Below, piece by piece: positions 10,187 through 45,228 of a DNA stretch of 64,000 nt; position 1 is the first letter of the stretch; each line of letters begins with the position of its first letter. Made by a program: the position numbers and the translations under genes. Below the pieces are notes generated by a model. That model did not search any database. It saw only the letters and a list, made by a program, of their open reading frames with translations, and was not told the DNA's origin. The stretch covers positions 248,001 to 312,000 of the forward strand of contig AP019755.1 in assembly GCA_006742785.1 (NCBI GenBank), in the 5' to 3' direction. Origin of the DNA: Nitrosomonas stercoris (GTDB taxonomy: Bacteria > Pseudomonadota > Gammaproteobacteria > Burkholderiales > Nitrosomonadaceae).

Positions 10187-13100
10187 TTATTTCACCATCT
10201 CCATCAGCCGCCCGAAGCTCTCCACCACGTCATACTTGACGTTTTCAGGGGCAAAGCGGCGATTCATCTCATCGAAGAATTTTCGGGCGCATTTGATCTT
10301 AGTTTTCTCGATCTCGCGCAGATCCATCGACGACATAGAACCTTTGGTTTCCGCCACGAAATAGATGTGCTTGACCGTGCCTTCCTTGAAGCTGATCGCC
10401 CAGTCTGGGTTGTAGTCGCCCACGGGCGTGGGAATCAGGAAGCCGCGTGGCAACTTGGCATAGACCACCACTTCATTGGCCGTATCCAGCTCTTTCACGA
10501 ACTCCCGCTCGACCTTCGAGTCCGTCAGCACATAGTCGTAGATATGTCGCTGGAGCTTGTCACCGGCATTGCTGAAATCCTGCTTGGATTGTCCAGCGGT
10601 GAAAATATCCAGATCGAATTTTTCCTCGACCGAATCGTAGGCCAGGTGTTCGATGATGACTGTCGCCTTCTGTTCGTTGATCAGGCGTATCGCCTCGGCG
10701 ATGAAGCTCTCGGGGTTGGTCTTGAACTGCGCAAAAACCGCGACGTTGATACCCTTGAGGATTTCCGCCACCGTGCGGCGTGTCAGTTGCGTTCCCTCGG
10801 CCAGCTTGCCGATCAGGTCGTATTTGACTGCAGAATGAATCGACTGCTTGTTATACTTGATCTCTGTTTCCGAAATCTTGAAACCGTCTCCGCGCTTGAG
10901 CGTCTCATCGGTCACCTGTTCAATCTGCTCGCCTGCCTGGATCATGTACTGCAACGGCGTGACGCGCAGGGTGGTGTCCAGCTCCTTGACAGCCTTCTGC
11001 ACGAGTTCATCCGAATCGAAATCGACGCTGTAGGCCGCCTTGCGGTTGATGCGATTCCACAGCACCTTGAACTCTTGCTTGTCGAAGTTGGCGTTGAGCG
11101 GATTCTTCTTCGGTTTGCGGTCGTCACCGATGTCTGGCAGCTGGCTCTCGCTGAATACACTGTCGATGAGCTGGAACACCTGCTCAGCGTGCGGTAGCAA
11201 CTCTTCCGGCAGATCCTCCAGAGCGCCGTCTTTCTTCGCCTGATGGTACTTCTCGGTGATGGTGCGCTTCCTATCCACGTAGCCGTTCTGGATCAGATAA
11301 AACTCGATGTCCGCCGCTTGGTCATCCGATACCGTGACCGTGCCTTCAGCCGTGTTCAGTGTCTTACCGGTGAAATAAGCCTTGTCTGCTACACGTGGAC
11401 GTGCAGACAGCGAATCGCTGATGTCCTTTTGCAGCGCTGTCACGAAGTCTTTGTAGCTTTCACTCGCCACCACCGTCAGCACGTTCACATCGTGCACCGT
11501 GGCCGGGTGATCCATCCGGTCGCCATTTTGATTGACGGACAAGCGCAGGCCGCGCCCCACCTCTTGGCGACGGGATATGGTGTTGTCGCTGTGCTTGAGC
11601 GCGCAGATGACGAAGACGTTGGGGTTGTCCCAGCCTTCACGCAAGGCCGAGTGGGAAAAGATGAAGCGCACCGGCTCATGCAGCGACAGCAACCGCTCCT
11701 TGTCCTTGAGGATTAGATCGTAGGCATCCACGTCCTCCGAAAGCCCGGCATTCTCGCCGCGCTTGATGACCTTGGGGTCAGTGAGTTTTTTACTCCGTTT
11801 GTCGATGGAAAAGTAGCCGCTGTGGGTTTTATCGGCCGCGATGTCTTTGAGGTATTTGACGTAGGGCGTTTCATCGAGATCAAGCATTTCGTTGAGGTAC
11901 AGCTTGTACTCCTGTTCGAAGACACGAGCGTACTCGCCTTTCTCGTCGGTAGCGGAATAGTCCCGGTACTTGGCCACCTCATCAATGAAGAACAAGGTGA
12001 GCACCTTGATGCCCTGCTGGAACAACACCTGCTCCTTGTCAAAGTGCGCCTTGATCGCCTCGCGGATCTGGATTCGACGCATTGCTTCTTCGGTCACATC
12101 ACCGGTCGCATCCCCGACGGTGAGCTCAACGCCATTGGTAAAGCTCAGCGTATCGGTATTGGCATTGATGTCGGAGACGACGAAACCATCGCGGTACTGA
12201 TCCAGCCCGTTGGAAAGCTCAAACAGATTGTCGCCTTTGCCCAGCTTGCGAACGACACGCTTGATATTGCCACCGGCCAGCTTCTGCTCAAACTCCACCC
12301 GCGCCTCGGGCGGTTTCTTACTGGAAATCTCGATGGATTGCAGGTAAAGATAGCCCGCCGTACCCGCCAGCCCTTTCACGGCGATGCCACGCACGGCGAT
12401 CTTCTTCACCAGCTTCTGATTGTAGGCATCCAGCGCATCCAGCCGGTGAATCTTGTTGTGCGTGGTCTTGTGGGTGGCCGAGTAACGCAGCACCATCAGT
12501 GGCTTGAAATTGACCAGCGAATCCAGGGTCTTGCCGCCTTCCATCTTCTGCGGCTCATCCAGGATCAGGATCGGACGGTTGGCACTGATGACGTCGATGG
12601 GTCTGCGCGACTGGAAGTCGTCCAGCTCCTCGTAAATGCGCCGGTTATCCTTGCCGGTAGCGTTGAACGCCTGCACGTTGATGCCCGCGTCCGACGAGAA
12701 GCTCTCCAGGTGGTGCAGTTGCTTGGAGTTGTAGATGAAGAAGCGCGCCTTCTTCTGATAGCTCTCCAGGAAGTGTTCGGCGGTAATCTCCAGCGACTTG
12801 GCCACGCCCTCGCGGATAGCGATGCTGGGCACCACGATGATGAACTTGCTCCAGCCATACCGCTTGTTCAGCTCGAAAATGGTCTTGATATAGCAGTACG
12901 TCTTGCCTGTGCCCGTTTCCATCTCGATATCCAGATGAATATTCGAGATAGCGGTTGCTGATTTGATGTAGGCCGGCCTTGCAGGGGTAGACTCCCCTTT
13001 GGCATTCGAGGTGTAAAAGTCCGTCAAAGAGGCAGAAACCAGCAGGTTCTGCTGACGCTGCACTTCCTGAATATTGCTGAGCAGAGCCTGATCCGACAGC

Positions 13101-13327
13101 GTCAGGTCGGCATTGCGAAAGGCTGCTTCCTTCTCTTCCGCACTGACGGAGGACGGTACTGCCATCTCTGCGAATGACGACTGGGGGCTTGTCGGCACCG
13201 CCTTTGAGACACCCGGATCAAGGCGGTAACGGACACCACCGTGGTGGGGCGGCTGCCCCTTGAAGCAATCCACCACCGCCTGCACGGCGGCGGTCTGGTA
13301 GGCCTGGGTTTTGAATTTGAGTTTCAT
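10187..13327 (-). CDS. res: Type III restriction endonuclease subunit Res
   Basis: Translocase/nuclease subunit of a type III restriction-modification enzyme; it acts only in complex with Mod. From [11 protein letters not shown] the protein has 1046 residues, usual for Res. Walker A ETGTGKT is at 137-143, Walker B DEPQ at 257-260, then [23 protein letters not shown] and the arginine-finger motif QEVGRGLRL. The C-terminus carries a PD-(D/E)XK nuclease: Pro974-Asp975 in NPDWAI and Glu993-Thr-Lys995 in VAETKG. I reject the upstream ATG at 13396 because homologues start at MKLKF. The ORF appears intact, although Mod is disrupted. The upstream region is rich in palindromes. Confidence 0.93.
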
Positions 13328-13352
13328 CGCGATCCGCGCCTCGTTTGAGAAA

Positions 13353-13371
13353 GTGCCACGGCTTGTGGCAC
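13353..13371. promoter_or_regulatory. Palindrome GTGCCAC-N5-GTGGCAC upstream of res
   Basis: Perfect 7-bp arms at 13353-13359 and 13365-13371, 26 bases before the res start. The same palindrome, with longer arms, occurs upstream of fic at 14784-14806. This makes it a candidate operator shared by both genes; the binding protein is unknown. Confidence 0.45.
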
Positions 13372-13381
13372 AAATTCCATG

Positions 13382-13395
13382 TGCGGATATCCGCA
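13382..13395. promoter_or_regulatory. 14-bp perfect palindrome upstream of res
   Basis: TGCGGATATCCGCA reads the same on both strands and lies 11 bases from the previous palindrome. It may be an operator, but could also be chance. Confidence 0.3.
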
Positions 13396-13415
13396 AAGGA
13401 TTTTATGGTGATTCC

Positions 13416-13496
13416 ACGATACACAAGTCGAGTTGTGTATCGTTATGCTAAAAATTCGATACACAAAATTCATAGAGACTGGCAGACGATACACAA
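13416..13496. promoter_or_regulatory. Cluster of four CGATACACAA sites between fic and res
   Basis: A perfect inverted repeat ACGATACACAA (13416-13426), 6-base spacer, TTGTGTATCGT (13433-13443) is followed by two more direct copies of CGATACACAA at 13457-13466 and 13487-13496. The cluster lies within the 175-base gap between the fic stop and the res start. The arrangement suggests cooperative binding of a regulator controlling res. Candidates are the winged helix of Fic or the HTH protein at 26229-26450, but neither link is shown. Confidence 0.5.
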
Positions 13497-13502
13497 ACTG
13501 AT

Positions 13503-14606
13503 TCACAGAATACGTCTCCCTTCCGCGATGTTCACCAGCTTTGGAAAGCACAACACGGCGGCACGCCTGCCGCTGCCTGCCCTCAGTTCTTGTAGAATGC
13601 CTGCTGCTTTGAGCTGACGAATCAGGCTCATGGCCGTTGGCTTGTGAATTTGTGTACGTGCAATCAGGTCCGTCGTGGAAAAAATCGGGCGGTCAAAAAT
13701 GGCATCCAGCACATGGACGGTAAACTGGGAATGGGTCGCTTCATGGATCGCCTGCTTCATCTCTTCATACAGCACCTGAATGGCCGCCACACGAGCACTG
13801 TTTTGTGAAGCTTGCGCCGTGACTGCTCGCAGAAAAAACGCGATCCAGCCATTCCAGTCATCTTCTGCGGAAATAGCCTTAAGCCGTTGATAATATTCTT
13901 CACGATGACTTTCCAGATATTCCGACAGGTAAAACATCGGCTGTGACAAAGCCCTTTTTTGGTACAGAAACAACGGGATCAGAATGCGACCGATACGCCC
14001 GTTACCATCCTTGAATGGGTGCAGCAGTTCAAACTGGGCATGAACAACCGCTGTTTGCAGCAGAAAATCCACATCGTCGCTGTCCAGATACAGCTCCCAC
14101 GCCTGTAAAAAATCGGGCAGCTGCAAAGGGTTCGGTGGCACAAAGGTGGCCTGTTCCATTGTGCAACCGTATCGGCCTATCCAGTTCTGATCCTTACGGA
14201 ATTCACCGGGCGTCTTATCCTGTCCGCGTACACTGTTCAATAGAATACGGTGCAACTCCCTCACAAAAGACAAGCGAATCGGGTAGTCCTGCAAATACTC
14301 ACGCGCCGAATACAAGGCTTGCCGGTAGTTGGAAATCTCCAGGATATCCTTGTACTTCTCACCTTCTTTAAGCAGCCCCGCTTCTTGCTCCAGCACTTCA
14401 TCGACCGTAGCCTGAGTGCCTTCGATTTTGGAAGACAGCACCGCTTCTTGGGTAGTCAGCGGCGACAGCATCACCGCCGGATTGGGAATACCCTGCAACA
14501 GCCCGTCATAACGCGCCAGCGACGCATTGGCTTGGCCCACCAGCGGCAAAAGCAAGCGGTAATCCAGATCGGCCAATGGCAAGGCGCTGGGTATGTAAGG
14601 CTGCAT
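13503..14606 (-). CDS. Fic family AMP-transferase-like protein
   Basis: Cytoplasmic Fic protein of 367 residues; such enzymes usually transfer AMP to target proteins. The full catalytic motif HPFKDGNGRIGR is at 196-207 with the reactive His196. An N-terminal inhibitory helix motif SSKIEG (58-63, the S/T-xxx-E-G/N pattern) shows it is self-inhibited (class II). Its C-terminal part (about 300-367) looks like a winged helix (STTDLIARTQIHKPTAMSLIRQLKAAGIL), as in many Fic proteins with a DNA-binding tail. AAAGGGAG precedes the ATG. It sits inside the type III restriction locus, between the DUF1016 gene and res; targets are unknown. Confidence 0.9.
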   Translation of the reverse strand: MQPYIPSALPLADLDYRLLLPLVGQANASLARYDGLLQGIPNPAVMLSPLTTQEAVLSSKIEGTQATVDEVLEQEAGLLKEGEKYKDILEISNYRQALYSAREYLQDYPIRLSFVRELHRILLNSVRGQDKTPGEFRKDQNWIGRYGCTMEQATFVPPNPLQLPDFLQAWELYLDSDDVDFLLQTAVVHAQFELLHPFKDGNGRIGRILIPLFLYQKRALSQPMFYLSEYLESHREEYYQRLKAISAEDDWNGWIAFFLRAVTAQASQNSARVAAIQVLYEEMKQAIHEATHSQFTVHVLDAIFDRPIFSTTDLIARTQIHKPTAMSLIRQLKAAGILQELRAGSGRRAAVLCFPKLVNIAEGRRIL

Positions 14607-14619
14607 GCTGTTTCTCCCT

Positions 14620-14682
14620 TTAGATGCTCTTTACTTCCGTACCCAGCGATAGCAAGGCCTGCGTCTTGAATTTGAGTTTCAT
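14620..14682 (-). CDS. 20-codon chimeric mini-ORF (res start joined to mod end)
   Basis: The ORF reads [20 protein letters not shown] then TAA. Its first nine residues equal the start of Res and its last ten nearly equal the end of Mod (LLSPGTEVKSI). It ends 13 bases before the fic ATG, and the fic ribosome binding site overlaps its end. I read it as a recombination scar in which the start of a res copy was joined to the end of a mod copy. It may act as a leader for fic by translational coupling, but this is inference. Confidence 0.45.
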   Translation of the reverse strand: MKLKFKTQALLSLGTEVKSI

Positions 14683-14932
14683 AAGATACCCTCAAGCCTT
14701 GTGGAGTCCGTAGGCGCCACAAAACGGATTACAGAGTGCGGCGCTGGTTCTGCGCTCCACAAGCAGCGTATGCTGTTTGTCATTTGTGCCACAAGCTGTG
14801 GCACAACATTTGGACGTAAGCCGTATGGCCCGATTAAAAAACCAGAAGGTTTGTGGCTTTTTGAAAAGTTGGCAAATGGTGCAATCGGCGCTTGCACAAA
14901 TGCCCAGCGTGGATGTTGCTTGGTCTTGAACG
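14683..14932. other. Non-coding gap between DUF1016 gene and fic
   Basis: An 85-codon minus-strand ORF (14679-14936) spans this gap but resembles no family and overlaps the DUF1016 stop, so I do not call it. The gap holds the palindrome at 14784-14806 and probably the fic promoter. Confidence 0.4.
14784..14806. promoter_or_regulatory. Palindrome TTGTGCCAC-N5-GTGGCACAA upstream of fic
   Basis: Perfect 9-bp arms around AAGCT. It is the second copy of the palindrome found 26 bases upstream of res. Because the following DNA also contains a copy of the res start, the palindrome was probably duplicated together with it. Confidence 0.5.
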
Positions 14933-15952
14933 TCATTCTTTCTCTACCTTACGCAAGGTTTGTTCAATTTCGCGTTGCAGTTCTTCGCGGTCAGGCAGAT
15001 AGAGCTGGTACTTCTGCACAAAAAGCTGGCTGTTCATCTGGTAGGTTGCATACTCAACCAATAGTTCGTCCTTATCTCTGCTCAGGATGATGCCAATGGG
15101 TGGGTTATCGTCTGGCTGATTTTCTTCTTTGGCAAAATAGCCCAGATAAAGATTCATCTGCCCGATGTCGTGGTGCTGCACATTGCCCAGCTTCAAATCA
15201 ATCAGCACAAAGCAGCGCAATATACGGTGATAAAACACCAAATCGACCCGATAATGCGTGCCGCCCATGGTAATGCGGTACTGCCGCCCCACAAAGGTAA
15301 AACCCTTGCCAAGCTCCAGCAAGAACTGCTGCAAATGCTGGCTAAGTGCAGCTTCCAGCTGCGATTCAGACACTAACCCAGTCTCAGGAATCTTCAGAAA
15401 CTCAAACACATAGGGCTCACGCAGTAAATCTTCGGGTTGTGCGACGACCTGGCCTTGCTGTGCTAATTGCAGAATGCTCGCTTTATCCTTGCTGGCTGCT
15501 AGACGCAAGAATAGAGAAGAGGCCTTTTGCCGCTTTAGCTCTGCTACTGACCAACGTTCGATAATGGCTTGTTGTTCGTAGAACCCGCGCTCCAGCGGGT
15601 CATCCAGCATCAAAAGCTCCACATAGTGTGACCAGCTCAATAAGTCAGACGGCGTCTGACCTATTGGGTAACGCAGATACAGCAAGCGCATGTAGATCAA
15701 GTTACTACGGCTGAACCCCCTGCCGTGGCGCAGGCGCAAGTCAGCAGACAGCTTGGTGATTAGCCCCGCGCCGTACTCGGCCCGGTCTTTGCCCCCCTGT
15801 TCGAACTCCACAATGTGCTGCCCCACCTGCCAATAGGTCTTCACCAACTGAGTATTGACTGCTTGCAGCGCCGCAGCACGGCCTGCTGTATAGGTGCTGG
15901 AGATATGCTCTAGCAGCTCTTGGTAGTTGTCGTCTGGTATGAGTTTTGACAT
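14933..15952 (-). CDS. DUF1016 (YhcG-type) PD-(D/E)XK nuclease-like protein
   Basis: The 339-residue protein has the two-part DUF1016 architecture. The N-terminal helical domain (about 10-150) includes TYWQVGQHIVEFEQGGKDRAEYGAGLITKLS and RSNLIYMRLLY. The C-terminal nuclease-like domain has GTHYRVDLVFYHRILRCFV with Asp237, then IDLKLG with Asp252 and Lys254, the PD-(D/E)XK core. Members of this family often accompany type I and III restriction genes, but their activity is not settled. It starts 8 bases after the mod stop, so it belonged to the mod operon. Confidence 0.88.
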   Translation of the reverse strand: MSKLIPDDNYQELLEHISSTYTAGRAAALQAVNTQLVKTYWQVGQHIVEFEQGGKDRAEYGAGLITKLSADLRLRHGRGFSRSNLIYMRLLYLRYPIGQTPSDLLSWSHYVELLMLDDPLERGFYEQQAIIERWSVAELKRQKASSLFLRLAASKDKASILQLAQQGQVVAQPEDLLREPYVFEFLKIPETGLVSESQLEAALSQHLQQFLLELGKGFTFVGRQYRITMGGTHYRVDLVFYHRILRCFVLIDLKLGNVQHHDIGQMNLYLGYFAKEENQPDDNPPIGIILSRDKDELLVEYATYQMNSQLFVQKYQLYLPDREELQREIEQTLRKVEKE

Positions 15953-16556
15953 AGGCGGCCTCAGATGCTCTTCACTTCAGTGCCCGGCGAGAGCAGTTTG
16001 AAGATCTGTTCCACGTTGATTTTCACATCATCGCTTTTGAATCCCGCGTCGCGGAATACCACGCGCAGCGGCTTATGGGTGGCCAATTCCTTAACGAAGG
16101 CTTCGTCGATGCCGCCGTGCGCGTCAAAGCAGGCGGCGAGCGCGTCGCCGTCCACGAAGAACACATCCTTGCCCTGGATGATCTTCCTCTCAATGGGCAG
16201 GGCAAGATCAACGCCCCAGTCCAGCATGACTTGAAACAGCAGATCTTCCGCTGTGCGGTCGGGCTTGATGTTGTCGACGAACAGATCGAGGTTGGACTTG
16301 TCCAGCGCGTCGGGGGCGTAGTAGACGTCGGCCATGTTCGAGGTATCGACTTTGAGAACACGAAAGCCAGTGTCTACATCCATCTTGCCACCGCTAACTT
16401 TCTTGCCGGCTCGACGGATACGCTCCTTGCTTATTTCGGAAATTGTGTTGTATCCGACTTTATGAGCTGTTGAGTCACTAGGGGTGTCCTCATCAATTTG
16501 AATCATAATAAATCGGCGCTTACCGCCATCTTCCGCATTTTTCTCTAAGAGCCTGT

Positions 16557-17033
16557 TTACGATCTTCTGAGTAATAGTGCCAAGAAAGCCAAATGAATGA
16601 GCTGCAAGCTGGTATCAAGTTTACGTTCGCAGTTTTTCCATAATCTTCGGCACTTTTCCAGCCAGGCGAAACTACGTTCCACTATCCAGCGCCTGGGCAT
16701 AACCTTGAAGGTATGCAGTTTGCTGCGTTTGGCGATCTGCACGGTGACAGGTTTGCCCAGAATTTCTTGCACACTTTCGGCAAATGGTGCTCCAGTATAG
16801 CCACCGTCACACAGCAAACCTTGCACTTGTCCCAAACTCGATCTGCAACGCTTCAAGGCCTGCAATGCACCGTTACGGTCAGTCACTTCCGCTGTCGTCA
16901 CTGCAATGGCGTGCGGCAACCCCAAGGTATCAACAGCGATATGGCGCTTGATGCCCGACACCTTCTTGCCGGCGTCATAGCCTTTCTGGTCAGCCGTGTC
17001 TGTATTCTTCACGCTTTGCGCGTCCACAATCAA
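16557..17033 (-). CDS. IS5-family transposase orfB (copy 1)
   Basis: Catalytic part of the DDE transposase: Asp in LIVDAQSVKNT, Asp in LLCDGGYTG and Glu in RWIVERSFAWLEK. The 158-residue ORF starts at an internal Met; the natural product is more likely an orfA-orfB fusion made by -1 frameshifting, since the orfB frame stays open back to the A7 run (NQVGAAREKLGRNACSTFL). Confidence 0.9.
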   Translation of the reverse strand: MIVDAQSVKNTDTADQKGYDAGKKVSGIKRHIAVDTLGLPHAIAVTTAEVTDRNGALQALKRCRSSLGQVQGLLCDGGYTGAPFAESVQEILGKPVTVQIAKRSKLHTFKVMPRRWIVERSFAWLEKCRRLWKNCERKLDTSLQLIHLAFLALLLRRS

Positions 17034-17355
17034 GAACGTGCTGCAAGCGTTGCGCCCCAGTTTCTCTCGGGCCGCGCCAACCTGATTTTTTTAATGCCTG
17101 CTCCAGCACGCTCACGCCGTGCTGGTCAGGCTCATTCCATTTGCGCCAATAGGCATATACACTCTGCCATTTGGGAAACTCTCCGGGCAAAAATCTCCAC
17201 TGGCAACCAGTACGCAGCAGATACAGCACAGCACAAAATACTTCATACAAATCTATTGTCGTGGGTTTGGTGCTGCGCCTCACGCTACGCAATAGCGGCT
17301 CTATCTCGGCAAACTTCTCTTTGCTAATATCACTGGCATATTTTGTTCTCTTCAT
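16990..17355 (-). CDS. IS5-family transposase orfA (copy 1)
   Basis: N-terminal, DNA-binding part of the transposase (121 residues; DUF4096-type: ISKEKFAEIEPLL, YEVFCAVLYLLRTGCQWRFLP, FPKWQSVYAYWRKW). It overlaps orfB by 44 bases and contains the A7 frameshift site at its LKKSG codons. Confidence 0.9.
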   Translation of the reverse strand: MKRTKYASDISKEKFAEIEPLLRSVRRSTKPTTIDLYEVFCAVLYLLRTGCQWRFLPGEFPKWQSVYAYWRKWNEPDQHGVSVLEQALKKSGWRGPRETGAQRLQHVLDCGRAKREEYRHG

Positions 17356-17408
17356 CCACGTATCGTAAGGAATAATGATGAGATCGTAAACGGGCTCTAA
17401 GAGCCTGT

Positions 17409-17885
17409 TTACGATCTTCTGAGTAATAGTGCCAAGAAAGCCAAATGAATGAGCTGCAAGCTGGTATCAAGTTTACGTTCGCAGTTTTTCCATAATCTTC
17501 GGCACTTTTCCAGCCAGGCGAAACTACGTTCCACTATCCAGCGCCTGGGCATAACCTTGAAGGTATGCAGTTTGCTGCGTTTGGCGATCTGCACGGTGAC
17601 AGGTTTGCCCAGAATTTCTTGCACACTTTCGGCAAATGGTGCTCCAGTATAGCCACCGTCACACAGCAAACCTTGCACTTGTCCCAAACTCGATCTGCAA
17701 CGCTTCAAGGCCTGCAATGCACCGTTACGGTCAGTCACTTCCGCTGTCGTCACTGCAATGGCGTGCGGCAACCCCAAGGTATCAACAGCGATATGGCGCT
17801 TGATGCCCGACACCTTCTTGCCGGCGTCATAGCCTTTCTGGTCAGCCGTGTCTGTATTCTTCACGCTTTGCGCGTCCACAATCAA
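17409..17885 (-). CDS. IS5-family transposase orfB (copy 2)
   Basis: Identical at protein level to orfB of copy 1, with an intact DDE triad, so this copy looks active. Confidence 0.9.
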   Translation of the reverse strand: MIVDAQSVKNTDTADQKGYDAGKKVSGIKRHIAVDTLGLPHAIAVTTAEVTDRNGALQALKRCRSSLGQVQGLLCDGGYTGAPFAESVQEILGKPVTVQIAKRSKLHTFKVMPRRWIVERSFAWLEKCRRLWKNCERKLDTSLQLIHLAFLALLLRRS

Positions 17886-18207
17886 GAACGTGCTGCAAGC
17901 GTTGCGCCCCAGTTTCTCTCGGGCCGCGCCAACCTGATTTTTTTAATGCCTGCTCCAGCACGCTCACGCCGTGCTGGTCAGGCTCATTCCATTTGCGCCA
18001 ATAGGCATATACACTCTGCCATTTGGGAAACTCTCCGGGCAAAAATCTCCACTGGCAACCAGTACGCAGCAGATACAGCACAGCACAAAATACTTCATAC
18101 AAATCTATTGTCGTGGGTTTGGTGCTGCGCCTCACGCTACGCAATAGCGGCTCTATCTCGGCAAACTTCTCTTTGCTAATATCACTGGCATATTTTGTTC
18201 TCTTCAT
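17842..18207 (-). CDS. IS5-family transposase orfA (copy 2)
   Basis: Same 121-residue orfA as copy 1, starting MKRTKYASD. Because the IS end is open in this frame, orfA is also the C-terminal part of a hybrid ORF that begins with the mod N-terminus at 19545. Confidence 0.88.
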   Translation of the reverse strand: MKRTKYASDISKEKFAEIEPLLRSVRRSTKPTTIDLYEVFCAVLYLLRTGCQWRFLPGEFPKWQSVYAYWRKWNEPDQHGVSVLEQALKKSGWRGPRETGAQRLQHVLDCGRAKREEYRHG

Positions 18208-19565
18208 CCACGTATCGTAAGGAATAATGATGAGATCGTAAACGGGCTCTAAGACTGCATGAGCCATACTTCCCGAGCCTGCAAAGAAATCAAGAACGAT
18301 CGAATCCTGTGTGGTTGCATGCTCCAGGATGCGTTTCATCAGTTGAACAGGCTTAGGGTTATCAAAAACTTTACTTCCGAACAGGGATGAAACGTCACGC
18401 GTCCCATCGTCTGTATTTCCAGCGTAGGCGTGATCCCAAAAGTTAATTGGAGTTAATCCGCGAGCCTCGGAAAGAAACATTTTTATTGAGGGGATGGCCG
18501 CATCGCCATTACTTCCCCAGTAAAGGAGACCTTCATTCTGAAGCCGCTCGAACTCGTCTTTCGAGCGACGCCAAGCGTTGGTCGTGGGTGTAGTAGTCTG
18601 CCCAGTATTTGGATTCTTTATGGGGTAACAAAGATTAGGGCGTTGCTCCGGGGTTGCAGGATTCAGGAAGGATGCGCCTTTCCACGGGCCGCGAGTATCA
18701 TTGTCTGGGTTTGAATAGCGGCCATCAGCTTCATCTGTGCGAGGCAAAAGATTTACCCTAAATGCATCAGACTGACTATATACAAGGATATGCTCAACGA
18801 CCGTAGTAAAATCCTGTGTATTGTTGCTTCGCGTATATCGCTTCTGCCATGAAATATCAGCCTGGAAATTCTGCTCACCAAAAATCTCGTCACAAATCTT
18901 GCGAAGGTTCGCGGACTCATGATAATCGGCAGAGACAAATAGCACGCCATCTTCAGCAAGTAAATTGCGTCCTATTTTAAGGCGCGGATATACCATGCTC
19001 AACCAATCAGAGTGGAAACGACCATTAGCTAAAGTATTTGCAATGAGTCGATTGCCTTCTTCGTCGACTTGATTGGATCGGCGGAAATATGCAGCCACTT
19101 CCTCAGAAAAATCGTCTTCGTAGATGAAGTCATTGCCCGTGTTATACGGCGGGTCAATATAAATCATCTTCACTTTACCCAGGTACGTCTCCTGCAACAG
19201 CTTCAACGCATCCAGGTTGTCACCTTCGATAAACAGGTTCTTCGTCGTATCAAAGTCCACACTTTCCTCGCGCACTGGCCGCAGCGTCTTGGCAATCGGC
19301 GCATTGGCCGTCAGCAGCGCTTCGCGCTTGCCGGGCCAGTTGAGGTGATAGCGTTCTTGCGGGCCTTCCACAATGGCATCGGACAGCTCCTGCCGAAGCT
19401 GGTCAAAATCCACCATCAGCTTCACGCTGCCATCTTCGCCTTGCGCTTCCGTTACGCAGCCGGGGAACATATCGCGAATGCGGGCGATGTTCTCTTCAGT
19501 CAGGTTGGGGGAGTGCATTTTTAATTTGTTCATCGTATTTTTCACGTTTGATTCTCAATACTATT

Positions 19566-21767
19566 TCAAGCGACACCCATATGGGCCTCGTAATGTTGCT
19601 GAAAACCCGCTTCGTCGAACACGGCTTTAAATTTTTCCAAGTAATATGCGAGATCATAGTCTGCGTAGTCCATGACGCTGAAGTTGATGCCGTCCTTATG
19701 CGACCCTCTATCCAGGAATCGAGCCAACGCCACGAATCGGTTATCTTGCTGCTCCAGCTTTCCTAAAGCCGCTTTGAATTCTTCGTTCTTGTTGTTGAAC
19801 GAGAAGAAGTGCTCAAGGATGCAGCGCATGGTGTTCGGCACAATGTGAGCTGGCAATTGTTGATCTCGTGCTTTTCGGAGGATGAACCAAAGAGCGTCAT
19901 AATCGTTCATCAGTTCGCTGGATTTTATCAAGCCAACTTGGGTGTGTGGATTCTTGGTCACTCTGAATAGCTGGCACTTTCTGTTCTTATCGGTCACACC
20001 AAGCTGCTTCATCAGCTCGTGTAAGAAGAACAGGTTATGCGTCAGCACAATGACTTGGCGAACCTTTGGGCCGCCAGCCGGTGCGATCAATTCCTTGCAA
20101 ATTAAAGCTGCGATGTCAAAAACATAGTTGACCGAAAGACTGGAAATTGGATCATCTATAACAACGATGGTCTTGTCTAGTTGGAACGTCTCGCCTTCTT
20201 TCTCTGATCCTTTCAGCAGCTCCATGTAGTAGAGAAAGGAAATCAGGGTTTTCTCCCCCTCGCTCAATGACTTCAATTCACCACTGTTTTGCCCTTGTCG
20301 ATTTAGGCAATACAGGCTTTCTTGCTCTGACTTTCTGGCGATTGAAAAAGCGAAAATGCCCATGTTGCAAAGCCGCTGATTGATAGCAACCATCGCCGCA
20401 TCCACACCTGTCTGCTTTTGGCGGAGCTCGGTCAGAGTTACGTTAAGCGACCCTAACTTTGACTCTAGCTCACGGTCTTCTTTGTCGTATTCAGCCTTTT
20501 GGTCGAGAAGCGGCGCGGTCATGGCGTCGTATGTAGAAAATGCTGCAGCTCTGTCTCGGCGGAGAATCTTCCAAAATTCGGCCGTGATGCGGCGTTTTTC
20601 CGCATCACGGTCAGAGATGCGCTGATTGAATCCCGAAATTCGCTGGTTGATTTCGGCGAGCTTATTCAGCAAGTCACCCAGACTGGATTCAGCAATACTG
20701 GCAAGCTCGCTTGGTTTTTCAGTTTTCGCTTTCATTGCGACCAGATTGGTCTGCAAGACCAACTTGAGCGCAGACCATGCGCTTGCTAGCCCAGCATCTT
20801 CCTTGGCAAACGGGTCTTGAAGTGCTTGATTGACCGATGCCTCTAATGCAGAAATTGCGGCCTCATACCTCTGGGCGAGGCTTTGTATATGATCAATTTT
20901 TGTTTGCCTGTCACCATCCAATAATTGGGAGAGCTCGGCGAGCAAGTCATGCGGTATTGTCTGCTGGCAAAAAGGACACTCCGGGTCATGTGCAAACTCC
21001 CGTCCTTTGTTGACCCAGTCGCTGTTCCCCCACTTTTCGATAAGCGGAGCCAACCTACTTTGCCCCGATACAACGATGCGCTCCTGCCAGATTGCGTCAA
21101 GCTCTATCGCTTGGAATCCCGGCTGGCTCAAACTCAGCGTGGACTTCTGGGGTTCAGTCCCTGATGCCTCTGCCAATCGTTTCTTTAAATTTTCAATCGT
21201 ATCCAGCTCTTCATCTTCGGCAACCTGGATAGCCTTCAGTGCGTCAAAAAATTTCTGTCGATTATTCCCATAGCCTTGTATCAACGGCTGCAGCTCTCCG
21301 CTGCTATAGGCGGCATGAGCTTTCCAAACCTCGGTCAAGGCAGTATCTTTCGCAGCAGTCAACGAGCTCGCCGTTGATGCCGTTAGATCCTTTAACTCTT
21401 CGCGCCGCGCTTCAATAGCGGCAATCTCTGGTGTTATTTCTTCAATTTTCTTTTGCGACTGCGTATCCAGTTCGCCCAAAGTGAAGATGCCCGGCATTCC
21501 AGCTACACCACCAATCACACGATCAACGAAGTCACTGTTGTAGACCACGGGGCGATACACCCCCTGACCTGTAGTCTCAACAGCGCAATGAGCGAAATCT
21601 GGACTTTTCTCGCCCCAACCATGGATTACTTCGCCGATGGACGACTTACCAGCACCGTTCAGACCGTAGAAGAACACGGGCTTCTGGGTACTCGTCTCGA
21701 GTTCAATTTCGACCGCTTCGGTCGGGTGAAAGCTCTTGTAGTTAGAAATCGAAATCTTCTTTAGCAT
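19566..21767 (-). CDS. RloC/PrrC-like AAA_13 ATPase, candidate anticodon nuclease
   Basis: A 733-residue ABC/SMC-type ATPase. Walker A GLNGAGKSS is at 35-43, the ABC signature LSEGEK at 501-506 and Walker B TIVVIDDP at 533-540, followed by the D-loop SSLS. Between the halves lies a coiled-coil region with a zinc-hook-like CPFC (264-267), as in RloC. Near the C-terminus Arg648-x3-Glu652 (NTMRCILEHF) and His690 (DRGSHKD) match the Arg/Glu/His triad of PrrC-type tRNA anticodon nucleases in order and spacing. PrrC and RloC are kept silent by, or linked to, a restriction enzyme and cut tRNA when phage disable it. The gene lies 20 bases upstream of mod. The nuclease role is inferred from motifs. 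Confidence 0.8.
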   Translation of the reverse strand: MLKKISISNYKSFHPTEAVEIELETSTQKPVFFYGLNGAGKSSIGEVIHGWGEKSPDFAHCAVETTGQGVYRPVVYNSDFVDRVIGGVAGMPGIFTLGELDTQSQKKIEEITPEIAAIEARREELKDLTASTASSLTAAKDTALTEVWKAHAAYSSGELQPLIQGYGNNRQKFFDALKAIQVAEDEELDTIENLKKRLAEASGTEPQKSTLSLSQPGFQAIELDAIWQERIVVSGQSRLAPLIEKWGNSDWVNKGREFAHDPECPFCQQTIPHDLLAELSQLLDGDRQTKIDHIQSLAQRYEAAISALEASVNQALQDPFAKEDAGLASAWSALKLVLQTNLVAMKAKTEKPSELASIAESSLGDLLNKLAEINQRISGFNQRISDRDAEKRRITAEFWKILRRDRAAAFSTYDAMTAPLLDQKAEYDKEDRELESKLGSLNVTLTELRQKQTGVDAAMVAINQRLCNMGIFAFSIARKSEQESLYCLNRQGQNSGELKSLSEGEKTLISFLYYMELLKGSEKEGETFQLDKTIVVIDDPISSLSVNYVFDIAALICKELIAPAGGPKVRQVIVLTHNLFFLHELMKQLGVTDKNRKCQLFRVTKNPHTQVGLIKSSELMNDYDALWFILRKARDQQLPAHIVPNTMRCILEHFFSFNNKNEEFKAALGKLEQQDNRFVALARFLDRGSHKDGINFSVMDYADYDLAYYLEKFKAVFDEAGFQQHYEAHMGVA

Positions 21768-21808: not shown

Positions 21809-22474
21809 TTAGCGTGTTAATACTTCAATCTTGTTTTTCAAAGCACGCAATTGAGCATTAATCTCCACCTTGCGGTTGAATTGTTTTTCTTTAGTTAGCC
21901 GCGCTGTGATTCTGTCTAGCTCGCGCTGTTTTGCCTGCACCTGCTCGACTCGGGCTATCAGCTCAATCAGCGTTTCTTGCGGCCGCGCGGGCAGCGGGAT
22001 TAATCGCTGGAGCAATTGCTCATACAGGCTTCCTAGGTGTAAGGCTACAGGTATTGCCGAGCGCTTGCTATCAATTGGCCACCAATTTGACGCAAAGTAA
22101 TCTGAGAGCACCCAGCGGCTGGTGTCGGCTTCGTTCGGGCGTTTGTAGGCGGCTATTATCTGCGTTTTGCCCTCGAAGGTCAGTTCAAACACGATAGGGA
22201 AAGGAATGGCCCGGTCGATGCTGCGCAATACGTCCTGATGTAGTTCCGGTCCTTTGAGCTGGATAGTGAATATCTGAATCTCTGGCACACCGGGCCGCGC
22301 TGGCAGGTGGATCGTCTCCGGAGCGAGCTTGTATTGCCAGACGATCTGCTCGACCTGCTCAACGAACAGATCCTTCAGTCGGGTGTTGGCTCCGCTGTGC
22401 TCGTAGATCTTGGCTTTAGGGATAACCTTTCCAAACTCTGCAGCCGCAGGATATTGAAGAAATGCGCTATTCAT
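21809..22474 (-). CDS. DUF4391 domain protein
   Basis: A 221-residue protein matching DUF4391, a family of unknown function that I know mainly from helicase-methyltransferase restriction loci. Recognisable stretches are FGKVIPKAKIYEHSGANTRLKDLFVEQVEQIVWQYKLAPETIHLP, VFELTFEGKTQIIAAYKR and the middle SLYEQLLQRLIPLPAR. The last 50 residues form a coiled coil (ARVEQVQAKQRELDRITARL). The start at 22474 (MNSAFLQYP) is preferred over the ORF start at 22546, whose extra 24 residues lie inside the upstream gene. It overlaps that gene by 8 bases, so the two are co-translated. Confidence 0.8.
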   Translation of the reverse strand: MNSAFLQYPAAAEFGKVIPKAKIYEHSGANTRLKDLFVEQVEQIVWQYKLAPETIHLPARPGVPEIQIFTIQLKGPELHQDVLRSIDRAIPFPIVFELTFEGKTQIIAAYKRPNEADTSRWVLSDYFASNWWPIDSKRSAIPVALHLGSLYEQLLQRLIPLPARPQETLIELIARVEQVQAKQRELDRITARLTKEKQFNRKVEINAQLRALKNKIEVLTR

Positions 22475-22874
22475 GGTTATCCGCAGATTGCGCGGATTCG
22501 CGCAGATTGAAGACCAATCTTTTGTGCTGGAGGCTGCTGGCGCCAAAATTTAGGAGCAACGCCTTGTTCAGGCCGGATGCCTTGAGGTAGTTAATGACCT
22601 GCGCTTCTTCTACTCCCGATAGTTGCTTCAGCGCCTTCAGCTCAACAATAGTGGTGTCAAAGCAAACGAAATCGGCTTTGTAGAATGCTTGCAGAGGCGT
22701 GCCACGATAAAGAATAGGCAGAGCCTTTTCCCGGTGGTGCGGGATATTCAGAGCAATTAACTCAAGCTCCAGCGCTTCTTGATAGACGGCCTCCAAAAAG
22801 CCACTGCCAAGCGCGCGATGGACCGTCATTGCGGCCCCAATTATTCGGTAGGTTTGCTCATCCGTAGTCATCAT
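22467..22874 (-). CDS. GxxExxY family protein (PD-(D/E)XK_3)
   Basis: The 135-residue protein carries the family name motif as GSGFLEAVYQEAL (G-x-x-E-x-x-Y). It also has a nuclease-like core: Asp in FYKADFVCFDTTIVELKAL with ELK as the (D/E)XK element. The family has a PD-(D/E)XK fold but no proven function. Its start overlaps the helicase stop by 4 bases and its end overlaps the DUF4391 start. It may be an accessory nuclease of the helicase. Confidence 0.85.
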   Translation of the reverse strand: MMTTDEQTYRIIGAAMTVHRALGSGFLEAVYQEALELELIALNIPHHREKALPILYRGTPLQAFYKADFVCFDTTIVELKALKQLSGVEEAQVINYLKASGLNKALLLNFGASSLQHKRLVFNLRESAQSADNHE

Positions 22875-25800
22875 CTGCGTTCTTCTGCGTAATCTGCGGA
22901 TTGAATCACTAAAAAAGCGATCAGTTCAAAGTCGTCCAGCCCCGAGATGGTGTTGGTCAGCGCTGTGGTTCTGCCACCGCTAAACAGGCTGTCCAGATCC
23001 TTTTCTTCCTTCACGTCGATCATTGACCGGATAGATGGGCCCAGAAGGTCGGAATAGGTCTGCATCTGGCGACCCTCGACCGTTTCCCGATTGAAGCGCT
23101 GGCAGGCGTCGACGATGGGTTTGTCCTGCCCCTTGCAGCAGCTACGCACCAGGTCGAGCAGGCGCTTGACCTCGGTGTGATCGTGAATGACCTCGCCCTC
23201 ACGACTGATATAGACGAGGTAATACGGGTGCAGGCGGTTGTGCTGGTTGAGATTGATGTCGCCTGTTTTGGAAGAAAGGGCGCGGTTGCGCAAGGTGAAG
23301 ATCGCCCCTGGCGGCAGCCCTATCTCGGGCCTGGCAGGAACCACGGCGTGCATACCATTGGGCGCACTGCTTAGTTCGCCGTGGGCTTTGACGTAGTTGA
23401 GCAGGTCCATGCGGAAGTCGTTCAGCCCCAGGTCGGTGATGGAGACGCCGGTTTTCAAATCTTCCAACTCGATGACTTCTTCCTGGAGGCGGCGCAGTTG
23501 CTCCTTGCGGTACGACACGTCGTTGGCCTGCGCGGACAGCACATTGTCGTCGCCGGTGGCGGTAACGTCGGCGATCATCATCCGGCTCTCGACGCGCTCC
23601 TTGAGGTTGATGTATTCGTCGAGCGAAATGTCGGGCCAGTAGTTGACAAGCTGGATGCTGCTGTTGGGCGAGCCGATACGATCCACCCGACCAAAGCGCT
23701 GAATGATGCGCACCGGGTTCCAGTGGATGTCATAGTTGATCAGGTAGTCGCAGTCCTGCAGGTTCTGGCCTTCGGAGATGCAGTCGGTACCGATCAGCAG
23801 ATCGACTTCGTGTGGTTCGTCCGGCAGCACCACGGCCTTCTCTTTCGAGCGAGGGGAGAATAGGGTTAGCAGTTCCTGGAAGTCGTAGCCGCGCTTGTGT
23901 GTGCCGCTCTTGATGGTGGACTGCGGTGCACCCTTGCCGGTGACCTTGGCGGTGTGGGTGGCATGCCTGGCCAGCAGCTCTGGCGCAAGATTGGCGTACA
24001 GGTAATCAGCGGTGTCAGCAAAGGCGGTAAAGATCAATACCTTTTTGTTGCCTGGATTGATGGGGTTGGAAATCTTGTTTAATACATGTGCTTTCAGGTG
24101 TTGAAGCTTGGCGTCATGCTCTGGAGTAACGGGCTGCATTGCCTCCAACAGGCTCTCTATTTCTTCCAGATCCTGGTTCAAATCAAACTGCCAGCTGGGC
24201 AAGTCCATGTCCGCCAAGCTCACTTTTATTTTTCCGCCAATATCGGCGTCTGTCTCCAGCTCAAGTAGCTCATCACCTTCAGCTTCAAGCTCTGCCAAAA
24301 TTTCGGTTATGTCTTCGACGCTAGCCCCATCACCCAACTGACGAAAATCGACTATCTTGTCCAGCGTGCGTATATGGTTATCACGCAACGCTTCCAGCGT
24401 CAGACGAAATGCAGCCACCGAACTTTCCAGACGCTTGAGCAGGTTGGTCGTCATCAATGCTTGAAGGCTTTTTTCCCGATCTGCTTGGCGCAAAGTACCC
24501 CTGCTGCCTACCTGGGTATCGTAGAGTTCTTCGTACTTGCTTAAGCGGCTCGGGAGTATGTAACTGACAGGTGCATAGACTGCGAGTTTGAGCCGTGAAA
24601 GGTGTTCAAAAATCTCGTTGAAGCCCATTACCTCCGGCCGCTCGCTTAATGGACAATGAAATGACAAAGGCTTGCGGCGTTCGGGGAATGGGCCAATATC
24701 CTTGGTGTCGTAGAAGGTCTGGATGTGTTTGCGCGAGCGGGCGATAGTGACGCTGTCGAGCAGTTCAAAAAAATCAAAGTCCAGCGAATCGAGAATTGCC
24801 CGTGCGGTACGCTCTTCAATAGGCAGTTTTGACCACATATTAAAGGCAGTTTGAGCACTGCGAAAAATTTCCTCAACACTTCTGCTGGTGCGCAGTTTTT
24901 TGCTGAGCTTTTCCGAATCACCCTCGTAAGCCAACGCCAGCTGATTGCGCAGATCAGTAAAGCGGTTGTTGACCGGCGTAGCCGACAGCATCAACACTTT
25001 GGTCTTGACCCCTTCCTTAATCACCTTGCGCATAAGCATCTGATAGCGCGTTTCCCTATCCTTAAAGGCGTCGTTGTTGCGGAAGTTATGGGACTCATCA
25101 ATAACAACTAAATCATAGTTACCCCAGTTGACACGGTTTAACGGCATACCGAAGGATTCGCCACTGGTGCGGGACAGATCGGTATGGCACAGCACATCGT
25201 AGTTGAACCGGTCACGGGCAAAGATATTGGTTTTGAGGTTGCGGTTATAGTTGAGCCAGTTGTCAGCCAACTTTTTGGGGCAGAGCACCAGTACCGAGCG
25301 GTTGCGCAGCTCGTAATACTTGACGACCGCAAGCGCGGTGAAGGTTTTGCCCAGGCCAACGCTATCAGCGAGGATGCAGCCGCTGTAGGTTTCCAGCTTG
25401 TTGATGATGCCGGTAGCCGCGTCCTTCTGATAATTGAAGAGTTTGTTCCAGATCAGGGTGTCTTGGTAGCCGGTGCGGTCGTTGGGTAATACGTCTTCGT
25501 CAATGTCGTCGAGGAACTCGTTGAAGATGTTGTAGAGCATCAGGAAGTAGATGCTCTCGGGCGAGTTCTCCTGATAGACCGAGGCGATGTGCTCGCAGAT
25601 CTGTACAGTCACATCCTCCAGCTTCTCGGGATCACTCCAGATTTGATCGAACAGGCTCAGGTAGGTGGCGGCAAAGGGGGCATCGTCCGTCTTGTTCACA
25701 AGGTTGGAGACCGCATTGCCTTGCTGGTAGCCCAGATCAACGGCAGTGAAACCGTGCAGCGGCATATAGGCGATATTGGTGCCACCCGCCTGCACGCAGG

Positions 25801-26191
25801 CGAACTGCTGCATGGGCGCTTTAGTGCGATTGCTTTTGAACGTGGCCTTGCGCTGTATCCAGTCGGCACACTCCCTGGCCACCGCCCGCTGGGTGAGCTT
25901 ATTGCGCAGCTGGATCTCAAATTCGCTGCCGTAGAGGCTGCGCTCTCGGTCGAGCCTAGGGATATGGAACTCTTTGCGCTCCTTGCGGATTTTGTCAGTG
26001 ACTTCGTTTGTCACGAAGGTCGGCGAGGTGAAAATGAAACTCAATCCGTCAATTTTCTCCAGTTCTGCTTTCAGTGCTTCGAAAGCATACATAGAAAAGC
26101 ATGAGGCAGCGATCTTTAAGCGCGCGCCGGGCCTGAGGGTCTGCTTAAGATCGTCGCCCAGCAAACGATTGATGTTATCGATCAGCTCCAT
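22871..26191 (-). CDS. Large SNF2-type helicase of the defence island
   Basis: An 1106-residue superfamily 2 ATPase that probably translocates on DNA. Residues 1-250 form an N-terminal region without visible HKD phospholipase motifs. Then come ADSVGLGKT (Walker A, 275-283), LVLCPKKLADNW, VVIDESHNF (DESH, 365-368), LMLSATPVNNR, and in the C-terminal lobe KKVLIFTAFADTADYL, DLLIGTDCISEGQNLQ and RIIQRFGRVDRIGS. DESH plus GRxDRIG groups it with SNF2/RapA-like helicases found in defence loci. The stop overlaps the next start (ATGA). It probably forms the core of a subsystem with the next two small genes. Confidence 0.88.
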   Translation of the reverse strand: MELIDNINRLLGDDLKQTLRPGARLKIAASCFSMYAFEALKAELEKIDGLSFIFTSPTFVTNEVTDKIRKERKEFHIPRLDRERSLYGSEFEIQLRNKLTQRAVARECADWIQRKATFKSNRTKAPMQQFACVQAGGTNIAYMPLHGFTAVDLGYQQGNAVSNLVNKTDDAPFAATYLSLFDQIWSDPEKLEDVTVQICEHIASVYQENSPESIYFLMLYNIFNEFLDDIDEDVLPNDRTGYQDTLIWNKLFNYQKDAATGIINKLETYSGCILADSVGLGKTFTALAVVKYYELRNRSVLVLCPKKLADNWLNYNRNLKTNIFARDRFNYDVLCHTDLSRTSGESFGMPLNRVNWGNYDLVVIDESHNFRNNDAFKDRETRYQMLMRKVIKEGVKTKVLMLSATPVNNRFTDLRNQLALAYEGDSEKLSKKLRTSRSVEEIFRSAQTAFNMWSKLPIEERTARAILDSLDFDFFELLDSVTIARSRKHIQTFYDTKDIGPFPERRKPLSFHCPLSERPEVMGFNEIFEHLSRLKLAVYAPVSYILPSRLSKYEELYDTQVGSRGTLRQADREKSLQALMTTNLLKRLESSVAAFRLTLEALRDNHIRTLDKIVDFRQLGDGASVEDITEILAELEAEGDELLELETDADIGGKIKVSLADMDLPSWQFDLNQDLEEIESLLEAMQPVTPEHDAKLQHLKAHVLNKISNPINPGNKKVLIFTAFADTADYLYANLAPELLARHATHTAKVTGKGAPQSTIKSGTHKRGYDFQELLTLFSPRSKEKAVVLPDEPHEVDLLIGTDCISEGQNLQDCDYLINYDIHWNPVRIIQRFGRVDRIGSPNSSIQLVNYWPDISLDEYINLKERVESRMMIADVTATGDDNVLSAQANDVSYRKEQLRRLQEEVIELEDLKTGVSITDLGLNDFRMDLLNYVKAHGELSSAPNGMHAVVPARPEIGLPPGAIFTLRNRALSSKTGDINLNQHNRLHPYYLVYISREGEVIHDHTEVKRLLDLVRSCCKGQDKPIVDACQRFNRETVEGRQMQTYSDLLGPSIRSMIDVKEEKDLDSLFSGGRTTALTNTISGLDDFELIAFLVIQSADYAEERR

Positions 26192-43511: not shown

Positions 43512-43524
43512 ACTTAGAGCCTGT

Positions 43525-44001
43525 TTACGATCTTCTGAGTAATGGTGCCAAGAAAGCCAAATGAATGAGCTGCAAGCTGGTATCAAGTTTACGTTCGCAG
43601 TTTTTCCATAATCTTCGGCACTTTTCCAGCCAGGCGAAACTACGTTCCACTATCCAGCGCCTGGGCATAACCTTGAAGGTATGCAGTTTGCTGCGTTTGG
43701 CGATCTGCACGGTGACAGGTTTGCCCAGAATTTCTTGCACACTTTCGGCAAATGGTGCTCCAGTATAGCCACCGTCACACAGCAAACCTTGTACTTGCCC
43801 CAAACTCGATCTGCAACGCTTCAAGGCCTGCAATGCACCGTTACGGTCAGTCACTTCCGCTGTCGTCACTGCAATGGCGTGCGGCAACCCCAAGGTATCA
43901 ACAGCGATATGGCGCTTGATGCCCGACACCTTCTTGCCGGCGTCATAGCCTTTCTGGTCAGCCGTGTCTGTATTCTTCACGCTTTGCGCGTCCACAATCA
44001 A
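43525..44001 (-). CDS. IS5-family transposase orfB (array copy 1)
   Basis: 158 residues, DDE motifs intact, one C-terminal Leu-to-Pro change relative to the other copies. Confidence 0.9.
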   Translation of the reverse strand: MIVDAQSVKNTDTADQKGYDAGKKVSGIKRHIAVDTLGLPHAIAVTTAEVTDRNGALQALKRCRSSLGQVQGLLCDGGYTGAPFAESVQEILGKPVTVQIAKRSKLHTFKVMPRRWIVERSFAWLEKCRRLWKNCERKLDTSLQLIHLAFLAPLLRRS

Positions 44002-44323
44002 GAACGTGCTGCAAGCGTTGCGCCCCAGTTTCTCTCGGGCCGCGCCAACCTGATTTTTTTAATGCCTGCTCCAGCACGCTCACGCCGTGCTGGTCAGGCT
44101 CATTCCATTTGCGCCAATAGGCATATACACTCTGCCATTTGGGAAACTCTCCGGGCAAAAATCTCCACTGGCAACCAGTACGCAGCAGATACAGCACAGC
44201 ACAAAATACTTCATACAAATCTATTGTCGTGGGTTTGGTGCTGCGCCTCACGCTACGCAATAGCGGCTCTATCTCGGCAAACTTCTCTTTGCTAATATCA
44301 CTGGCATATTTTGTTCTCTTCAT
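43958..44323 (-). CDS. IS5-family transposase orfA (array copy 1)
   Basis: 121 residues, same as in the mod copies; A7 frameshift site within the overlap with orfB region. Confidence 0.9.
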   Translation of the reverse strand: MKRTKYASDISKEKFAEIEPLLRSVRRSTKPTTIDLYEVFCAVLYLLRTGCQWRFLPGEFPKWQSVYAYWRKWNEPDQHGVSVLEQALKKSGWRGPRETGAQRLQHVLDCGRAKREEYRHG

Positions 44324-44376
44324 CCACGTATCGTAAGGAATAATGATGAGATCGTAAACGGGCTCTTAGAGCCTGT

Positions 44377-44853
44377 TTACGATCTTCTGAGTAATAGTGC
44401 CAAGAAAGCCAAATGAATGAGCTGCAAGCTGGTATCAAGTTTACGTTCGCAGTTTTTCCATAATCTTCGGCACTTTTCCAGCCAGGCGAAACTACGTTCC
44501 ACTATCCAGCGCCTGGGCATAACCTTGAAGGTATGCAGTTTGCTGCGTTTGGCGATCTGCACGGTGACAGGTTTGCCCAGAATTTCTTGCACACTTTCGG
44601 CAAATGGTGCTCCAGTATAGCCACCGTCACACAGCAAACCTTGCACTTGTCCCAAACTCGATCTGCAACGCTTCAAGGCCTGCAATGCACCGTTACGGTC
44701 AGTCACTTCCGCTGTCGTCACTGCAATGGCGTGCGGCAACCCCAAGGTATCAACAGCGATATGGCGCTTGATGCCCGACACCTTCTTGCCGGCGTCATAG
44801 CCTTTCTGGTCAGCCGTGTCTGTATTCTTCACGCTTTGCGCGTCCACAATCAA
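44377..44853 (-). CDS. IS5-family transposase orfB (array copy 2)
   Basis: 158 residues identical to orfB of the mod copies; catalytic triad intact. Confidence 0.9.
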   Translation of the reverse strand: MIVDAQSVKNTDTADQKGYDAGKKVSGIKRHIAVDTLGLPHAIAVTTAEVTDRNGALQALKRCRSSLGQVQGLLCDGGYTGAPFAESVQEILGKPVTVQIAKRSKLHTFKVMPRRWIVERSFAWLEKCRRLWKNCERKLDTSLQLIHLAFLALLLRRS

Positions 44854-45175
44854 GAACGTGCTGCAAGCGTTGCGCCCCAGTTTCTCTCGGGCCGCGCCAA
44901 CCTGATTTTTTTAATGCCTGCTCCAGCACGCTCACGCCGTGCTGGTCAGGCTCATTCCATTTGCGCCAATAGGCATATACACTCTGCCATTTGGGAAACT
45001 CTCCGGGCAAAAATCTCCACTGGCAACCAGTACGCAGCAGATACAGCACAGCACAAAATACTTCATACAAATCTATTGTCGTGGGTTTGGTGCTGCGCCT
45101 CACGCTACGCAATAGCGGCTCTATCTCGGCAAACTTCTCTTTGCTAATATCACTGGCATATTTTGTTCTCTTCAT
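44810..45175 (-). CDS. IS5-family transposase orfA (array copy 2)
   Basis: 121 residues identical to orfA of the mod copies. Confidence 0.9.
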   Translation of the reverse strand: MKRTKYASDISKEKFAEIEPLLRSVRRSTKPTTIDLYEVFCAVLYLLRTGCQWRFLPGEFPKWQSVYAYWRKWNEPDQHGVSVLEQALKKSGWRGPRETGAQRLQHVLDCGRAKREEYRHG

Positions 45176-45228
45176 CCACGTATCGTAAGGAATAATGATG
45201 AGATCGTAAACGGGCTCTTAGAGCCTGT

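Follow-up and report, generated by a model that had tools for sequence, protein, structure and literature searches.

An intact RloC-type anticodon nuclease candidate beside an insertion-disrupted type III methyltransferase gene in Nitrosomonas stercoris

The window, a 64,000-nucleotide stretch of Nitrosomonas stercoris contig AP019755.1, contains a type III restriction-modification (R-M) island whose genes all lie on the minus strand, in the order SNF2 helicase, GxxExxY, DUF4391, RloC, mod with two insertion sequence (IS) copies inside it, YhcG, Fic, and Res. The SNF2-family helicase (22871..26191) and the DUF4391 protein (21809..22546) are conserved parts of the module, with a GxxExxY/PDDEXK_3 protein (22467..22874) encoded between them. 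Downstream of the RloC gene (19566..21767) come the N-terminal part of a type III Mod (18256..19545; 430 codons, with an N6_N4_Mtase domain), the C-terminal part of the same Mod (15961..16506), and two cargo genes encoding a YhcG/DUF1016 PDDEXK nuclease (14933..15952) and a SoFic-like Fic protein (13503..14606). The last gene is an open type III Res of 1069 aa (10187..13396). The locus as a whole is modular, combining SNF2, DUF4391, Mod, and Res with cargo that varies.

An earlier, sequence-only reading placed a type III mod 20 bases downstream of the nuclease candidate. Both the type and the distance hold: mod starts with a GTG at 19545, leaving a gap of 20 nt to the upstream, co-directional RloC gene, but it is split by two IS copies and is not whole. 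The break comes after about 430 codons; the N-terminal part, within an open reading frame (17842-19545) that continues into the IS, covers positions 2-428 of profile PDLC03634, and the C-terminal part (15961-16506) covers positions 441-621 of 621. With Res open and Mod split, the locus lacks the intact Mod and Res pair of a type III R-M system. When the N-terminal part of Mod was used as a query, only the window locus was matched in the host genome, with no second relative. The contig also encodes two PF02384 N6-methylases, at distances of about 500 and 540 kb.

The interrupting sequence consists of two tandem copies of an IS5-type element on the minus strand (16543..17402 and 17395..18254), exact 860-bp repeats that overlap by 8 bp and carry inverted ends of 22-23 nt. 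The 2.38 Mb genome holds at least 42 copies at 99-100% identity and four more at 78%, a count for which 40 of 71 candidates were scored and one 22-bp end match was not counted. In three places, including 16543-18254 and 43513-45925 (the latter converted from genome coordinates), the element abuts another copy or the 78%-identical kind head to tail.

The RloC gene itself is intact and encodes 733 aa from an ATG start. The ABC-ATPase motifs, proposed earlier to be split by a coiled coil with a CPFC motif, are all present: Walker A (GLNGAGKS, residues 35-42, 21642..21665), the ABC signature (LSEGE, residues 501-505, 20253..20267), and the end of Walker B (DDP, residues 538-540, 20148..20156), with the CPFC zinc-hook motif at the residues claimed (264-267, 20967..20978), between long predicted helices. 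Near the C-terminus, motif and alignment point to a putative anticodon nuclease (ACNase) triad of R648 (19824..19826), E652 (19812..19814), and H690 (19698..19700), spaced R648-x3-E652-x37-H690 with S689 directly before the His.

These features agree with the published description of RloC, a known anti-phage family that couples a sensor of DNA breaks to a domain for tRNA cleavage. Its members have 658-897 aa, a coiled-coil insert with CX2C that separates the ABC motifs, and a C-proximal signature, R-X3-E-X36-52-H, where Ser often precedes the His (PMC2610378). At 733 aa, the window protein falls within this size range; it has the Walker A, ABC signature, and Walker B motifs, the coiled-coil insert with a CXXC, and the C-terminal signature with its Ser, and it is homologous to PrrC, the two triads aligning. 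The earlier assignment to an RloC-like family with a PrrC-related C-terminal domain is therefore backed by published sequence criteria as well as by profile alignment. Characterised RloCs resemble the window protein in size, motifs, insert, and triad, and in being linked at times to type I or III R-M genes (PMC2610378, PMC3874168); what sets the window gene apart is its position in an SNF2-DUF4391 type III island with an IS-disrupted mod.

Profile searches gave the same assignment. Pfam AAA_13 (PF13166) matches residues 32-718 (E 2.5e-105, 354 bits against a cut-off of 36), and this is the one AAA_13 gene found in the host genome. A similarity scan of genome contigs with the window RloC as the single query found one locus. 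The PADLOC model PDLC04886 matches the protein over its full length (752.8 bits), placing it in PDC-S06, a phage defence candidate class that is defined by sequence and not by mechanism. The PADLOC PrrC model covers residues 391-727 with 52 bits. Among PDB chains, a phmmer search with the window RloC returned only two FtsY rows (E 0.41 and 0.58), and profile searches with the RloC and PrrC alignments yielded no chain named RloC or PrrC among the best 60 of 72 and all 4 of 4 matches, respectively.

To relate the protein to PrrC, we aligned 11 of the proteins matched by the PADLOC PrrC model, which hit 13 of 249 genomes; two partial proteins were left out. Comparison of these 11 PrrCs (A2) with 21 RloC-like proteins (A1) by hhalign gave a probability of 97.6% (E 3.4e-12) and set R648, E652, and H690 opposite R315, E319, and H351 of the PrrC from L062. 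The claim that Arg648, Glu652, and His690 follow the order and approximate spacing of the PrrC triad is borne out by this register. When the C-terminal domains were aligned alone, the triads were again in register with a score of 29.1 (E 2.4e-4, probability 43.7%); as controls, 60 column shuffles reached at most 17.4, a reversed profile 12.1, and the best of 30 decoy slices from Mod, Res, SNF2, HsdM, and HsdR alignments 24.1.

The window protein is related to PrrC yet is not a PrrC, because size, zinc hook, and R-M type differ. The two share an ABC ATPase and a C-terminal R-E-H domain, but PrrCs are described as proteins of 341-416 aa without a zinc-hook insert that are invariably linked to type Ic hsd genes (PMC2610378, PMC3874168); in contrast, the window protein has 733 aa and a CPFC motif and is surrounded by type III genes. 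A CXXC motif was absent from all 12 PrrC-model open reading frames examined.

We modelled the window RloC with AlphaFold2, using an alignment of 50 proteins (A3) as input. The model (mean pLDDT 84.3, pTM 0.53) has three parts: the ATPase head, the long helices on either side of the hook, and a C-terminal domain that is helical. In a Foldseek search the best match was the Mre11-Rad50-Nbs1 chain 7zr1_D (E 3.5e-8), with a low whole-chain TM-score of 0.23. In VIA-align 2 the top rows were Rad50 heads with Z 17.5 (9bi4_C, rmsd 12.4 over 351 residues; 5da9_B, rmsd 5.8 over 290 residues); further ABC ATPases followed near Z 14-15. These alignments cover residues 1 to about 620. As modelled, then, the ATPase half is Rad50-like. 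Rad50 and SbcC share with the window RloC an ATPase head carrying a zinc-hook coiled coil; unlike RloC, they are described as having no C-terminal nuclease-like domain (PMC2610378).

Residues 640-657 of the model form a helix containing both R648 and E652; H690 is the last residue of a short one (687-690), after which comes a low-confidence stretch (692-698). Modelled alone, the C-terminal domain is all-helical (pLDDT 85.5, pTM 0.78). Foldseek searches of PDB and BFVD with this domain gave no match at E <= 0.001, and VIA-align 2 gave no row at Z >= 5, the top row having Z 4.2. The nuclease domains of RloC and PrrC have been assigned to the HEPN superfamily (PMC3710099), and the HEPN toxin 7ae2_A aligns weakly with our model (VIA-align 2, Z 2.4, rmsd 5.0, 82 residues); the missing strong HEPN match is no argument against a HEPN fold.

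We examined conservation in A1, which comprises the window RloC, one protein from a plasmid, and 19 from genomes, and in A3, which comprises the window RloC and 49 IMG/VR proteins. The Walker A lysine, K41, is invariant (21/21 and 50/50), as are the hook residues: C264, P265, and C267 are each present in 21/21 proteins in A1, and the three CPxC residues in 50/50 in A3. Within A1 the triad is well kept (R648 in 20/21, E652 in 21/21, H690 in 19/21), along with S689 (21/21). In A3, R648 (50/50) and E652 (49/50) are retained but H690 is found in only 28/50. Identity to the window RloC is 21-25% for the 22 proteins without this His, though some of those with it are no closer. These His-less rows, which fall among L117-L164 on viral contigs, retain the Arg and Glu, one of them with Asp in place of Glu.

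A wider set gave a similar picture: of 77 non-redundant proteins that reach 600 aa or more, 30 have no His within two columns of H690, three of them being truncated or unaligned there. Given these 22/50 and 30/77 proteins, not every member of the wider family carries the full triad. Another histidine, H725 in the window numbering, is invariant in both alignments (21/21 and 50/50). R-M linkage was seen for 8 of the 30 proteins lacking the triad His and for 5 of the 47 having it, a difference that is not significant (Fisher p 0.12).

We then compared the island with related loci. DUF4391 is present in 19 of 299 genomes sampled from the phylum, the host genome included. Nineteen regions from the other 18 genomes, together with nine loci similar to mod (six plasmid regions and three from the same genus), formed a comparison set of 28. 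Mod profiles matched 26 of these loci, Mod and Res together 22, and SNF2 as well in 17; the three profiles were built from the compared loci and so are not independent evidence. The recurring gene order is SNF2-DUF4391-Mod-Res. The variable genes ahead of Mod encode an OLD-type ATPase with DUF2130, a UvrD-like protein, or GmrSD; those separating Mod from Res encode RhuM, Fic, AAA with DUF4276, or YhcG. Earlier work noted that RloC-like genes occur together with Doc-like or RhuM-like ones near R-M genes (PMC3710099); our full-text literature search for RloC or PrrC with type III R-M returned no title on this SNF2-DUF4391 type of island, and a search for AAA_13 with anti-phage found no paper.

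One of the 28 loci, L219 from the same genus, also carries an RloC. Its SNF2, DUF4391, Mod, and Res genes are all open, and its Mod is 64% identical to that of the window. The L219 RloC (13089-15476, plus strand) begins 24 nt after Res and encodes 795 aa with an AAA_13 match of 440 bits, a CAFC hook, and the sequence R677-x3-E-x45-H, the His following a Ser; the broad AAA_13 profile used for the survey contained this protein and so is not independent of it, unlike its Pfam match. It is only 21% identical to the window RloC. Because the two proteins differ in subfamily and in slot, we infer that they were acquired separately. We disregarded weak matches to the AAA_13 profile (12-15 bits), which occurred in four of the 28 loci and include two OLD-type ATPases. 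On a Methylotuvimicrobium plasmid (L206), an AAA_13-like gene after Res (14220-16328, plus strand; 702 aa, 45 bits) encodes a CPFC motif and R552-x3-E-x16-H, a C-terminal spacing that lies outside both the PrrC and the RloC definitions.

The closest relatives of the window RloC adjoin a type I locus or no detected R-M gene, not a type III system. A homologue that is 50% identical (L086) lies on a 7.8-kb contig with no R-M gene detected; a Luteimonas homologue (L002, 10001-12220; 49% identical) is frameshifted and follows a type I hsd locus; one on a Xanthomonas plasmid (L009, 44%) lies near Tn7-like transposition genes, with no R-M gene detected; and that in L021/L045 (42%) likewise has no detected R-M gene.

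We counted linkage more broadly in 102 RloC-bearing loci, excluding the window; removal of 18 redundant ones left 84. Within 6 kb of RloC, no R-M gene was detected at 68 loci, HsdM and HsdR were both present at four, Mod and Res at two, and one gene at ten. L002 is among the ten, its HsdM being 8 kb away, and the Mod and Res of L162 lie beyond the 6-kb limit. These counts are lower bounds because the profiles are home-made and many of the contigs are short; L002, L055, L057, and L060 supplied the sequences for the HsdM and HsdR profiles, whose matches there are not independent evidence, and the type I genes of all four loci were then confirmed with Pfam. Davidov and Kaufmann reported in 2008 that 8 of 73 RloCs were linked to type I or III R-M genes and mentioned one as type III-linked (PMC2610378). 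Since PrrC is known beside type I enzymes, the sequence-only reading had implied that a type III partner was new; the 2008 report rules out such novelty. The additional interest here is modest and comes from the natural disruption of mod and the second acquisition of an RloC.

The question at stake is how RloCs linked to R-M genes are controlled: by R-M enzymes that restrain them, as for PrrC, or by self-activation at DNA ends. We think that the window protein is probably an RloC of the second kind, in which a Rad50-like ABC ATPase with a zinc-hook coiled coil would control an R-E-H ribonuclease domain, and tRNA cleavage would be triggered by DNA ends without regard to Mod. The ATPase would most likely sense linear DNA ends, arising from host DNA breaks, phage attack, or cuts made by the island's own Res; the C-terminal domain would then be released to cleave tRNA anticodons, translation would stop, and infection would be aborted. 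The gene would be one of several exchangeable cargo genes in the SNF2-DUF4391-Mod-Res island, kept silent independently of the linked Mod. The nuclease activity, trigger, and tRNA target are proposed by analogy with characterised RloCs, whose hallmarks include excision of the wobble nucleotide and DNA-dependent activation. In Geobacillus RloC, alanine at any triad residue abolishes ACNase activity (PMC2610378), and in mutants deficient in R-M, DNA breaks activate Acinetobacter baylyi RloC (PMC3874168). Activation of the window RloC by DNA damage is plausible on this analogy; the authors of the Acinetobacter study do not rule out R-M control of RloC during phage infection (PMC3874168).

The sequence-only reading had proposed a guard that cuts tRNA when Mod/Res or DNA is disturbed. 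In such a PrrC-like arrangement, the island's Mod and Res would keep RloC silent, and phage anti-restriction or the loss of Mod would release it. PrrC is indeed silenced by its linked type Ic R-M system and unleashed by T4 Stp (PMC2610378, PMC3874168, PMC12707154), and the 2008 paper suggested that the state of the restriction enzyme may be what R-M-linked RloCs react to (PMC2610378). The co-directional placement of RloC 20 nt before mod would suit this arrangement, as would L219, where RloC follows Res by 24 nt and both Mod and Res are open. However, mod is broken in the window, no second Mod relative was found in the genome, and RloC is intact, which argues against a toxin silenced only by its linked Mod. 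Type I genes, or no detected R-M genes at all, adjoin the closest homologues, and activation of Acinetobacter RloC by DNA breaks needs no R-M system (PMC3874168). We therefore judge control by the island's Mod and Res to be improbable. The combination of a broken mod and an intact RloC fits self-controlled activation and speaks against silencing by the linked Mod alone, but is not proof: the IS insertion may be too recent for decay of RloC to show, RloC may be unexpressed, or other R-M enzymes may act on it in trans, the two distant PF02384 N6-methylase genes being candidates.

Just as unlikely, in our judgement, is that the gene is an inactive passenger, cargo of a decaying island that is unexpressed or no longer encodes a nuclease, with the IS as the only decay visible so far. 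The disruption of mod by a highly multiplied element and the frameshift in the Luteimonas homologue are consistent with this, and the PrrC orthologues examined were active except where their linked R-M system was cryptic (PMC3874168), which is also what control by R-M enzymes would predict; against it, the window open reading frame is full length with all of its motifs intact. That the protein is some other ABC-ATPase defence effector, with a helical C-terminal domain not meant for anticodon cleavage, is very improbable: the C-terminal model has no significant fold match and distant relatives lack H690 while keeping H725, but R648, E652, and H690 align with the PrrC triad and the near relatives in A1 keep the His in 19/21.

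Building on the preferred reading of a DNA-end-triggered RloC, we tentatively offer a broader one that we regard as possible, if doubtful: SNF2-DUF4391 type III islands may have acquired RloC more than once, in different slots, as a plug-in effector, a Mod-independent sensor of DNA ends that would cleave tRNA in response to restriction cuts or phage DNA breakage. The mod::IS allele would then be a natural experiment in which the supposedly guarded enzyme was lost and the host survived. The window locus, with RloC intact and mod broken, and L219, with RloC, Mod, and Res all open, form a pair for a direct test of the guard model.
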